Shown: positions 37,060-43,291 of the stretch, in pieces
Layout: each line of letters starts with the position of its first letter
Numbering within the stretch: position 1 is the first letter of the stretch
DNA from: a virus
Direction: 5' to 3' (one strand)
IMG/VR virus record: IMGVR_UViG_3300035691_000004
Coordinates: 1-64,000 of that record
Length of the DNA stretch: 64,000 bases
Position numbers and translations under genes: made by a program
Notes under the pieces: model-generated
Database searches by the model: none
What the model saw: the letters and a program-made list of their open reading frames with translations, nothing else
What the model was told of the DNA's origin: nothing

Positions 37060-37665
37060 ATGGCGCTTCTCGATTCGGAGCTCCAGCGGATCCGCTTCGA
37101 GACCGGCTACAATGTTCTGAGCGCTGGCGCTGAGCCGTACGTAAGCTACGTCGCGATCTTCGACGTAGTTGTGCGCACGTATCTCAACGCTGGCGCAAAG
37201 ACTACGAGCTCGACCGCCATCTCAGCGTCGACAACGCCAGCGCTGGTATCTCTAACTCTGGCTAGCGCGGCGGGCTTCTCGGCTGGTGATCGTGTCTACC
37301 TCGATGTCGACGCTCGCCAGGAGTCAGCCATCGTAGAGACGGTTTCGGGCTCCGCGATCACACTGGCGCTCTCGCTTGCCCACTCCGGGACATATCCGGT
37401 TACCGTCGAGGGCGGTGAGGCAATCGTGCGCGAGTGCCTCCGAGACATCCTCGACGCCAAGCAGCGGGCGCGATCCTGGGGCGGAACAGGCGCGCTCAAG
37501 AAGGTAGACGAGGTCGAATTTTATCCTGGCACCGACGGGAAAACCGCCTTTGCCATGGCCGAGTCTGACCTGATGCTATTGCGCGACCGACTCTGTAGCG
37601 CGCTCGGGGTCACAAATCTGTGGCGTGTCCGGGCTGGCGCGGGGCTGTCCATTTCCTCTTACTAG
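37060..37665 (+). CDS. Head-tail connector/adaptor-like protein
   Basis: 201 residues. A helical N terminus, an inserted beta module (LASAAGFSAGDRVYLDVD), and helical CLRDILDAKQRARSWGGTG. Order (capsid, decoration, this gene, neck genes) suggests a head-completion adaptor. Confidence 0.55.
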   Translation: MALLDSELQRIRFETGYNVLSAGAEPYVSYVAIFDVVVRTYLNAGAKTTSSTAISASTTPALVSLTLASAAGFSAGDRVYLDVDARQESAIVETVSGSAITLALSLAHSGTYPVTVEGGEAIVRECLRDILDAKQRARSWGGTGALKKVDEVEFYPGTDGKTAFAMAESDLMLLRDRLCSALGVTNLWRVRAGAGLSISSY

Positions 37666-37667
37666 CC

Positions 37668-37745
37668 ATGCCCACCCTAGCCGAATCCCTCCGCCCGCTC
37701 GTCTCGAGCATCAGGGCGATCCCGGGGCAGATGGGGACTAGTTGA
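37668..37745 (+). pseudogene. Remnant 5' end of the neck gene split by an HNH element
   Basis: 25 codons: MPTLAESLRPLVSSIRAIPG then QMGTS and a TGA. It aligns residue by residue with the start of the intact gene at 38485 (MPSFAESLRPMISSVRSLPG). Its ATG sits 2 nt after the previous stop, where the original gene must have begun. It is now cut off by the HNH gene at 37764. Confidence 0.8.
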
Positions 37746-37763
37746 AGGTATGCTTATCGCGTT

Positions 37764-38558
37764 ATGGCGATAGCAAAGGACAGAGATAGACCGTGCACTA
37801 GCTGCGGCATGAGCAGCCCGGACGCCTCTTTCTCCAGCAAGCCGGACGGGCATAGGTGCTCGAGATGCAGGGCGTGCAAAGCCAGAGACGCGAGCGCTAG
37901 GCGCGCTGCAAATCCGGAGAAATCCCGAGCAGCTAAGAAGCGCTGGCGAGAACGCCACCCGGATCGGGTACGCGCGGAGGAACGGAATCGCAAGAGGCGC
38001 ACTCGACAAGTTTTACCAGGATTTCGAAGGGGCTCATCAGTCGATACCCCAGGAATTCTGCTTTGCGCCGGATGCAAGCGAGCCCTCCAGAGCAACGACT
38101 TTGCGCGCAACTCGAAGAAGAAGAGGGGGCGGCAAAGTCGTTGCAGATCCTGCCAAGCGGCAGACCGCGCACTACGATTGGACCGCGAGCGAGAGACCAA
38201 AAGGGCTTGGCGCGCCAAGAATAAAGCGCTCACCAACGCGGCTGCTGCACGTAGGCGTGCAGCCTTGCGCGTTGGGCCCTGCGTGGCGATTGACGCAAAA
38301 GCCATAAGAGAGCGCTTCTTAGTTTTTGGCAATCTCTGCGCATATTGCGGTTCCGCAGAGAAGCTCAGCATCGATCATGTAAAGCCGCTCGCGCGTGGCG
38401 GACTCCATATCCTCGCAAACATTCGACCAGCGTGTCGCTCCTGCAACTGCAGGAAGCGCGACATGGCACCAAAGGAATGGTTAGATGCCATCGTTCGCGG
38501 AAAGCCTGCGGCCAATGATCAGCTCCGTGAGGTCATTGCCGGGAATTCTCGGACTTAG
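37764..38558 (+). CDS. HNH endonuclease with N-terminal zinc ribbons (free-standing element)
   Basis: 264 residues. Two ribbons open the protein (CTSCG...RCRACKA; LCAGC...RCRSC), a very basic helical stretch follows, and the C terminus is the nuclease: LCAYCGSAEKLSIDHVKPLA ... CRSCNCRKRDMAP. The last 25 codons overlap the start of the neck gene 38485 in a second frame. No intron ends are seen. Same family as 42611-43291. Confidence 0.85.
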   Translation: MAIAKDRDRPCTSCGMSSPDASFSSKPDGHRCSRCRACKARDASARRAANPEKSRAAKKRWRERHPDRVRAEERNRKRRTRQVLPGFRRGSSVDTPGILLCAGCKRALQSNDFARNSKKKRGRQSRCRSCQAADRALRLDRERETKRAWRAKNKALTNAAAARRRAALRVGPCVAIDAKAIRERFLVFGNLCAYCGSAEKLSIDHVKPLARGGLHILANIRPACRSCNCRKRDMAPKEWLDAIVRGKPAANDQLREVIAGNSRT

Positions 38559-38922
38559 GCCTTACAGCGCCTCGATCATCACCGGTGCATGGTCGGGCTC
38601 AGCCACCGGCAGCGGCGCCGAGACCACGACGACGATCGCGCTCACCGAAGGCAACGGCCAGCCCTGCAAGGTTCGCTGGCTCAACTCCGAAGAGCTGGCG
38701 GTCGGAGACCTCCAGAAGGGCACGATCGAGATCGGCCCCATCACGCCAGGCCCAGGCGGCAACAACCTGCTCTCGCAGATTCACCCGGCGCTCAGCGCTG
38801 GCCAGACGATTCACGTGCTCGTGAACGGTCCCGACCTCGGGACCGCGAAGTTCGAGATCACTTCGTTCAACGCGGACCACGCGCTGCACTACACGATTCA
38901 GGCGAAGCCAGTAGGAACGTGA
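38485..38922 (+). CDS. Neck/tail-connector protein with rebuilt N terminus
   Basis: 145 residues from ATG 38485, preceded by AAAGGA. The first 74 bases are shared with the 3' end of the HNH gene in another frame yet give MPSFAESLRPMISSVRSLPG, a diverged copy of the dead start at 37668. The rest is a beta-rich structural domain (TIEIGPITPGPGGNNLLSQI). Probably a head-tail joining protein. Confidence 0.7.
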   Translation: MPSFAESLRPMISSVRSLPGILGLRPYSASIITGAWSGSATGSGAETTTTIALTEGNGQPCKVRWLNSEELAVGDLQKGTIEIGPITPGPGGNNLLSQIHPALSAGQTIHVLVNGPDLGTAKFEITSFNADHALHYTIQAKPVGT

Positions 38923-39716
38923 CCGACTCCGCTAACACGATCAACCAGCGCGTTGGCGTGTTCGAGTTCCCGTACTCAGATACGGACGTCGACAACACCG
39001 ACAAGACCGTCACGGATCTTGCCCAGTCAACGCTACTCTCGCTGTTCCAGGCGGCCATCAACGACGAGCTGACCGGTGTTTTCGCGAAGGTGGCCGCCGG
39101 CACCGCACTCGATCACGATTCGCTCCCGCTGATTCCAGTGCGCGACGTCTGGCCCGGCCGCTGGTCGCCGCAAGTCGCCAAGCAGCGCAAAACAACTTTT
39201 CCCGTCCTCGCTCTCTATCGCACAGGCGCTCGCGAGTGGAACGAGCTGACGCTGGGCGTCGACCAGGCCACGCAAAAGTGGGGCATCGACCTCATTCTCG
39301 GCCCGGTAGACGTCGGGGACCAGCAGCGCATCGAGCGCATCCTTCCTCGCATCGGCGTGCTCGTTCAGCGCGTGCTCCGTAACCGCGGGCACAAGTCCTT
39401 TCAGTCTGGTGCCTGCCTATGGGGTGTCCAAGAGACCGGCTCGCTCTCCTCAGTCTGGATGGACAAGGACGAGTTTGGCCCTGCGCAGTTCGTCGGCGAC
39501 GACGGTGGCGTGACATATCTCGGCTGGTCGGCGCAGCTCACTACTACCGAGGTGGATTCGAACGTCGGCGATGGTGACGCTGTCGACCTGCTCGGAACGA
39601 CTTTCACGTTCGGTGTTGGTGGCAGCGATGGCGTCATCCCAGGCGCAATCACCGCGATCAGCATCGGCGAATTCAGCTCTGAGTTCAGCAGCGAATTTCG
39701 GGTGTTAGGTACATGA
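38919..39716 (+). CDS. Tail-completion/terminator-like protein
   Basis: 265 residues from GTG 38919 (GTGA overlap). Helical start, then TTFPVLALYRTGAREWNELT and WGIDLILGPVDVGDQQRIER, the order of a tail-terminator-like protein. Located between neck and sheath genes. Confidence 0.5.
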   Translation: MTDSANTINQRVGVFEFPYSDTDVDNTDKTVTDLAQSTLLSLFQAAINDELTGVFAKVAAGTALDHDSLPLIPVRDVWPGRWSPQVAKQRKTTFPVLALYRTGAREWNELTLGVDQATQKWGIDLILGPVDVGDQQRIERILPRIGVLVQRVLRNRGHKSFQSGACLWGVQETGSLSSVWMDKDEFGPAQFVGDDGGVTYLGWSAQLTTTEVDSNVGDGDAVDLLGTTFTFGVGGSDGVIPGAITAISIGEFSSEFSSEFRVLGT

Positions 39717-42610: not shown

Positions 42611-43291
42611 GTGCAGGTCTGTACCAAGTGCCGCGAGAGCAAGGCGCTTGACGATTTCTACCTTCTGGCAACCGGTTGCAGGCGGCGCGAATGCAAGGCC
42701 TGTTGTTCCGCTTACGCCAAGGGTCGCCCGGCGTACCAGTACGAACCGAATGCGGACAAGCGGTGCTCGCGCTGCTTAGCAGTGAAGAAGAACACCGAGT
42801 TTGCGCGGAACAAGAACAGCAAACTCGGCACACGCTCTTGGTGCAAAGCCTGCTTCAGCGAGTACTCGAAGGCCGACAACAAGGCTCGATATGCGGCGGA
42901 CCCGGACGCAGCACTAAGGCGCTCAGGTGAATGGGCGGCGCGCAATGGAGCGCTCATCCTTGCAAATCACAGGGCCAATCGCGCGCGAGATCCGAAGCTA
43001 TATAACTCGAGCCGCTCTGCTCGATACCAGCGCGAACGCTCAGCTGTCGGCCCCGGGATATCCGCCGAGCAATGGGCGGAGATACTCGAGATTCACGATC
43101 ACCGCTGCGCGTACTGCCTGCGAAAGATCGCGCCGCTCCAACTCGACCACGTGATCGCGCTCGCCCGTGGCGGCGAGCATCACGCTGACAACGCAGTTCC
43201 AGCCTGTGTCTCCTGCAACAGCAGCAAGCGCGACAAGGCGATGTTCGAAATCCTAAACCCGCGGCTGCTTGTCGCACAACGATCGGTTTAA
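42611..43291 (+). CDS. HNH endonuclease inserted between sheath and tube genes
   Basis: 226 residues from GTG 42611. Zinc ribbons CTKCRESKALDDF and RCSRCLAVKKNTEF open it; the nuclease is HRCAYCLRKIAPLQLDHVIA ... CVSCNSSKRDKA. The three codons at the insertion edge, TCC GTG CAG (Ser-Val-Gln), recur after the gene as TCG GTC CAA at the start of the tube frame. Paralogue of 37764-38558. Confidence 0.85.
   Translation: MQVCTKCRESKALDDFYLLATGCRRRECKACCSAYAKGRPAYQYEPNADKRCSRCLAVKKNTEFARNKNSKLGTRSWCKACFSEYSKADNKARYAADPDAALRRSGEWAARNGALILANHRANRARDPKLYNSSRSARYQRERSAVGPGISAEQWAEILEIHDHRCAYCLRKIAPLQLDHVIALARGGEHHADNAVPACVSCNSSKRDKAMFEILNPRLLVAQRSV

Follow-up and report, generated by a model that had tools for sequence, protein, structure and literature searches.

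A free-standing HNH endonuclease gene that probably brought a spare start to the phage neck gene it interrupts

In a metagenomic phage genome, an HNH endonuclease gene separates two starts of one neck gene: the upstream start runs into a stop codon after 25 codons, and the downstream start, equipped with a separate ribosome-binding site, falls within the 3ʹ end of the HNH gene in a different frame. The neck gene is uninterrupted in relatives lacking the HNH gene, its two starts in this phage are diverged, and, with this one, three unrelated genes have the layout. We regard it as probable that a free-standing HNH gene was inserted in the neck gene, carrying with it a start from another phage lineage. 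The layout, present here and in two unrelated phage genes, suggests how such genes could enter coding sequence with neither an intron nor an intein.

Organization of the interrupted neck gene

The window, the whole stretch of 64,000 nucleotides that was analysed, is part of the 64,876-base virus record IMGVR_UViG_3300035691_000004, which is of metagenomic source. A gene of the neck/adaptor region encoding 201 amino acids (37060..37665; plus strand, as are all genes and signals of the locus) ends with the stop codon 37663–37665, and the ATG at 37668, 2 nt 3ʹ of this stop, opens a reading frame, MPTLAESLRPLVSSIRAIPGQMGTS, which is terminated by a TGA at 37743–37745. This frame (37668..37745), with about 23 homologous codons before the TGA, is the dead ancestral N terminus of a head-closure-like gene, and the ancestral junction is that between the upstream stop codon and the dead start. 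The HNH gene follows (37764..38558, 264 amino acids). Within its codons for ..PKEW, a Shine-Dalgarno-like AAAGGA (38471..38476), separated by 8 nt from the ATG at 38485, serves the restarted neck gene (38485..38922; 145 amino acids, protein P0001), whose product opens with MPSFAESLRPMISSVRSLPGILGLRPYS... The replacement N-terminal coding sequence (38485..38558) coincides with the final 74 nt of the HNH open reading frame (ORF) and is read in the +1 frame relative to it. The dead 25-codon start, the HNH gene and the restart in the HNH tail with its AAAGGA were all present as the sequence-only reading had described them.

Because homology to HNH-less relatives stops near 37740 and resumes near 38555, we place the putative inserted segment at 37740..38555, with approximate boundaries; it would comprise a leader of about 24 nt, the HNH gene and the replacement start. 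No HNH-bearing close relative of the window phage was found, and the donor and the limits of the insertion are thus putative.

The HNH gene and absence of splicing elements

The product of 37764–38558 contains an HNH catalytic domain with zinc-finger-like cysteines and keeps the catalytic DH, GG, N and CxxCN. It scored above the cut-off for Pfam HNH and HNH_5 and matched phrog_1035 ('endonuclease VII') at 8.7e-32. Homology to the HNH family stops at about residue 244, and the restart opens at about HNH codon 241, the overlap being the last 24 residues of the HNH protein. As the restart sets in just where the resemblance to the family gives out, these 24 residues are probably nothing but the neck start read in another frame. 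Among relatives of the HNH protein, none was close enough to be the donor. A second HNH gene of broadly the same family (42611–43291) lies directly 3ʹ of the tail sheath gene, and no duplicated gene terminus was found beside it.

A search against Rfam returned no intron match in 37400–39000 up to E=1, and none at the gathering score in either of two parallel loci described below (L061 and L184). A group I or group II intron was ruled out, as no catalytic intron RNA surrounds the HNH ORF by Rfam. An intein was ruled out by the reading frames: the relic stops at the TGA, the frame of the neck gene differs from that of the HNH gene, the HNH product matches HNH families only, and there is no in-frame continuity with splicing domains. 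The earlier claim that the insertion involves neither an intron nor an intein therefore holds.

The neck protein and its N terminus

No sequence family was found for P0001. Its AlphaFold2 model had a pLDDT of 80, and the top Foldseek matches were connector or neck proteins, namely the PhiTE connector protein (9cc7, E=3e-3) and the SPP1 gp6/gp15/gp16 connector (7z4w), with probabilities of 0.97–0.99 and a TM score of only about 0.4. Since the gene stands between the capsid and sheath genes, a role of the modelled protein in head closure is likely. In an alignment of 24 sequences, the N-terminal residues R16, P19, G23 and R25 were invariant or nearly so, from which we expect that the N terminus is needed and that losing the neck start should matter. 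The restarted protein spans positions 1–147 of the family profile and is complete; a split gene of the mobE/mobA type with two needed pieces was rejected on this basis, there being no complementary halves.

Comparison of the two neck-gene starts

The starts at 37668 and 38485 share 14 of 23 residues, and their nucleotides are 54% identical. Ten of the 14 identical residues are encoded by different synonymous codons, and the nucleotide differences at codon positions 1, 2 and 3 number 12, 4 and 16, respectively. When residues 1–23 of the protein starting at 38485 were scored at every six-frame position of the window, the ungapped BLOSUM62 score of the 37668 start was 84, and the next-best position reached 33. 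With a profile built from HNH-less relatives only, the 37668 frame was the second match in the window (E=4.8e-6, profile positions 1–24), followed by an ORF with E=0.95. The likeness of the two starts is, by these sequence comparisons, far above chance. No DNA repeat joining the two copies was found.

As the differences are mostly synonymous, each copy evolved as a working coding sequence in a lineage of its own until the two were joined. A duplication made at the time of insertion is disfavoured, because such copies start identical and the dead one then decays at all codon positions; the mostly synonymous divergence would instead fit an imported spare N terminus. The earlier statement that the starts are alike in protein and diverged in DNA, and hence represent no recent duplication, agrees with these figures. 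The G+C content of the restart overlap (57%) was close to that of the HNH gene (59%) and differed from those of the dead start (68%) and the body of the neck gene (65%), a weak indication, as the overlap has only 74 nt.

The original start in HNH-less relatives

A scan of viral contigs with the neck protein as a single query gave no matches. Relatives were gathered via the sheath and capsid genes, which yielded 57 distinct relatives having both neighbours. No HNH gene occurred within the fetched stretch of any of them, indicating a presence/absence polymorphism at one site, with the HNH gene missing from the junction in all 57. In 39 of these relatives the neck gene begins at most 40 nt past the upstream stop (median 1 nt), and no HNH-less relative had two neck-gene starts. 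The 37668 version outscored the 38485 version against 42 of the 57, and the reverse was true of 13. Since HNH-less relatives usually start the neck gene directly after the upstream gene, at the place of the dead start, 37668 is the original start of the neck gene, now severed, and the restart at 38485 came from elsewhere. The sequence-only reading had named as support, in phages lacking the HNH gene, an uninterrupted gene whose start resembles that at 37668, and this is what the relatives possess; the opposite pattern, in which they begin with the 38485 version and the 37668 frame has no counterpart, was not observed.

In 18 of the 57 relatives (among them L009 10128–11260, L011 3908–5178, L304, L336 and L338) the same junction holds more than 40 nt of extra DNA, which in several of them consists of unrelated ORFs. 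The junction therefore resembles a hotspot of insertion within this family of phages.

Recurrence of the layout among HNH loci

At 131 distinct viral HNH loci, we compared the reading frames on either side of the HNH gene by a start-anchored score, with shuffled pairs as controls; this score was used because unanchored local alignment across the loci produced arginine-rich noise. Three cases stood out, with scores of 84 (window), 91 and 136, compared to a maximum of 46 among shuffled pairs (n=1302), and the remaining viral loci lay within the shuffled range except the fourth-ranked one (59), from Streptomyces phage Bmoc. This was rejected, as it consists of tandem HNH fragments without a host gene: an HNH gene is followed in tandem by a partial HNH zinc-finger paralogue (L350, 1986–2698). 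Among 78 HNH loci on bacterial contigs, none had the pattern and no score exceeded 43. The downstream gene overlaps the HNH 3ʹ end in 35 of the 101 viral loci having a downstream gene, so such overlap is common and is no evidence by itself. Resupply of a terminus is a minority pattern (3 of 131 HNH genes) and may be of incidental origin.

In the viral contig L061, a dead family-2 glycosyltransferase start of 36 codons is followed by an HNH gene, whose 3ʹ end contains the restart, a GTG. The dead start passes the gathering cut-off of Pfam PF00535 (model positions 1–32 of 168), and the DNA of the two glycosyltransferase starts is 65% identical. The same contig has successive genes at 1754 and 2299 that both begin MAINSLSTGFRPGVCTSSTRP, and a third, truncated start at 2820, MAINSLSTG... 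(19 codons), adjoins the dead glycosyltransferase start on its 5ʹ side.

In the Synechococcus phages Ssp-JY40 and Yong-M3-232, a helicase start relic is continuous with the HNH reading frame, and the second helicase start coincides with the stop of the HNH gene. As annotated, the HNH proteins of these phages (L184, 2141–2959, and L356, 1686–2504) carry the helicase relic at their N termini, which is a warning for annotation; an internal ATG at 2312 of L184, with GGAGG upstream, may be the true HNH start. Rhizobium phage RHph_TM3_3_14B has the same HNH type directly 5ʹ of the helicase with no relic, and phage 16-3 has a sigma-factor/helicase junction without HNH; judged by sequence, these would represent the donor-like and the empty state of the helicase junction, respectively. 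No relic was found at the helicase-overlapping HNH genes of Roseobacter phages CRP-901 and CRP-902.

In all three cases the relic shares the frame of the HNH gene, the break falls within the first 23–36 codons, and the gene restarts at the 3ʹ end of the HNH gene or within it. The breakpoints adjoin what we take to be conserved motifs, namely G-x-R for the neck gene, the WEWV(I)-DD stretch for the glycosyltransferase and the Walker A region for the helicase.

Two further HNH genes, of Bacillus phage f2b1 and a viral contig (L021, 1880–2749, and L052, 2900–3765), end in the eight residues FDVKTLGS and EDVKVLGK, which resemble the C termini of the upstream helicases, FDVKILGS and FDVKVLGK. These ends are suggestive of a C-terminal mirror case, with a match of about eight codons only.

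Discussion

We propose that an HNH homing-type endonuclease gene was inserted after about codon 23 of the neck gene, beside the G-x-R motif. In the putative donor phage, the HNH gene would have stood immediately upstream of the neck gene and overlapped its start. The nuclease would cut an HNH-free neck gene close to the conserved motif, and repair would copy the HNH gene plus the donor start, the right side being joined by homologous exchange and the left by end joining, with the old start remaining. In this way, a start region from another phage lineage (ribosome-binding site, ATG and about 23 codons) would arrive fused to the HNH 3ʹ end, and the resident start would be turned into a short dead frame 5ʹ of the nuclease gene. 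The neck protein would then be translated from the imported start, the same codons serving as the last 24 of the nuclease. Cutting, homing, expression and harmlessness are what we infer for this insertion from its layout. That the element carries a spare N terminus supplying the gene it enters, as the sequence-only reading had suggested, gains support from the HNH-less relatives, the synonymous divergence and the two independent parallel cases. The spare start could be either an adaptation or a by-product of DNA carried along in break repair.

The most serious competitor to this proposal, although we think it unlikely, is an accident of mosaic recombination, in which a crossover brought in an HNH gene that was already intergenic in another phage and left the old start behind; the second start would then be ordinary flanking DNA, and the element would not be adapted to carry it. 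The existence of a relic-free arrangement with HNH before the helicase is in keeping with such an event, as are the acceptance of other genes at the neck junction (more than 40 nt in 18 of 57 relatives) and the lack of the pattern in most surveyed HNH genes. However, three unrelated genes have one layout (a break in the first 23–36 codons, a restart at or within the HNH 3ʹ end and a relic in the HNH frame), and because of this recurrence a single accident is insufficient. A chimeric assembly of two phage genomes might be suspected, since the window is a metagenomic contig and its HNH gene is missing from 57 relatives; we consider this scarcely credible, as matching anatomy occurs in Ssp-JY40 and Yong-M3-232, isolates whose genomes were deposited separately, and the joins coincide with meaningful coding positions.

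The adjoining of two homologous starts could also reflect a partial duplication of the neck start within the lineage of the window phage, with the HNH gene between the copies and later divergence. This is very improbable: a dead copy is expected to decay at random, yet the differences lie mainly at third and first codon positions, the family profile still recognizes the dead copy, and a relative with two starts was not seen. Somewhat less improbable, but still doubtful, is continued use of the dead start, either as a 25-codon leader coupling the upstream gene to HNH translation or through recoding into the neck protein. The shared frame of relic and HNH gene in all three cases would suit a leader, and so would the distances from relic stop to HNH start, 18 nt in the window and 9 nt in L061, with no intervening stop in Ssp-JY40; but a threefold agreement of frame could be chance (about 1 in 27), and recoding would be superfluous, as the restart supplies a full N terminus. 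A leader role is compatible with the insertion of an HNH gene together with an imported start.

If the HNH gene did bring its spare start, a selfish nuclease gene can occupy a conserved phage gene with no need of splicing. This would explain why certain HNH genes overlap the start of the next gene, and a route would be provided for N-terminal exchange between phages and for the origin of overlapping genes. More tentatively, and with rather less than even confidence in the whole, some HNH elements might be a third kind of homing endonuclease that is safe for the gene it enters, in addition to those borne by introns and inteins. Such elements would insert within a few dozen codons of the start of a conserved gene, express HNH from the start region of the host gene, provide that gene with a fresh start and ribosome-binding site from within the HNH 3ʹ end, and by their spread swap N termini between phage lineages and make overlapping genes.

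Group I introns and inteins likewise offer endonuclease genes a way to occupy conserved coding sequence, but no splicing element was found in the window, where the gene is repaired through a second start. Among phages, genes split by insertion of free-standing HNH-type homing endonucleases are described, with mobE in nrdA of Aeh1 and mobA with T4 gene 60 (PMC2988022). These resemble the window in having such a gene inside a phage coding gene; there, however, the split gene remains as two working polypeptides and the passages on them mention no replacement start (PMC2988022), whereas in the window the second piece is complete by itself and the first is dead. HNH genes of the ShiLan type are inserted out of frame in phage methylase genes and thus share with the window an HNH ORF within a phage gene, overlapping frames and the lack of intron or intein, but the methylase frame stays open and is read through, with no restart and no duplicated terminus (PMC11855218).

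Mitochondrial introns of Tremella duplicate fragments of host genes and are, like the window element, mobile elements with a foreign host-gene piece able to replace the resident one. In Tremella, a eukaryotic mitochondrial rather than a phage system, the carried piece is at the 5ʹ end of the element and copies the following exon, the elements are partly introns, and there is no new start signal (PMC7315562). The open-licence papers searched contained no N-terminal version in phages in which the restart overlaps the nuclease gene, although an earlier description is possible.

The nearest known parallel is found in mobile endonuclease ORFs of fungal mitochondria that bring replacement C termini, in Allomyces atp6, in Glomus atp6, atp9, cox2 and nad3, and in Phlebia atp6 and cox2; the native and replacement ends of Glomus atp6 are 63.5% identical in nucleotides and 91% in amino acids (PMC3630166, PMC4019555). 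In both systems a free-standing endonuclease ORF, inserted close to one end of a gene, supplies a diverged version of this end, and the native terminus persists as a relic, the copies being alike in protein and unlike in DNA. In the fungal ORFs, which are of the LAGLIDADG or GIY-YIG type, the C terminus (3ʹ end) is replaced and fused in phase upstream of the nuclease, whereas in the phage, with its HNH enzyme, the 5ʹ end is replaced; the new end needs a ribosome-binding site of its own and is contained, out of frame, in the 3ʹ part of the HNH gene. Because the replaced end and the phase differ, the phage case is a variant of the mitochondrial type and not a member of it.
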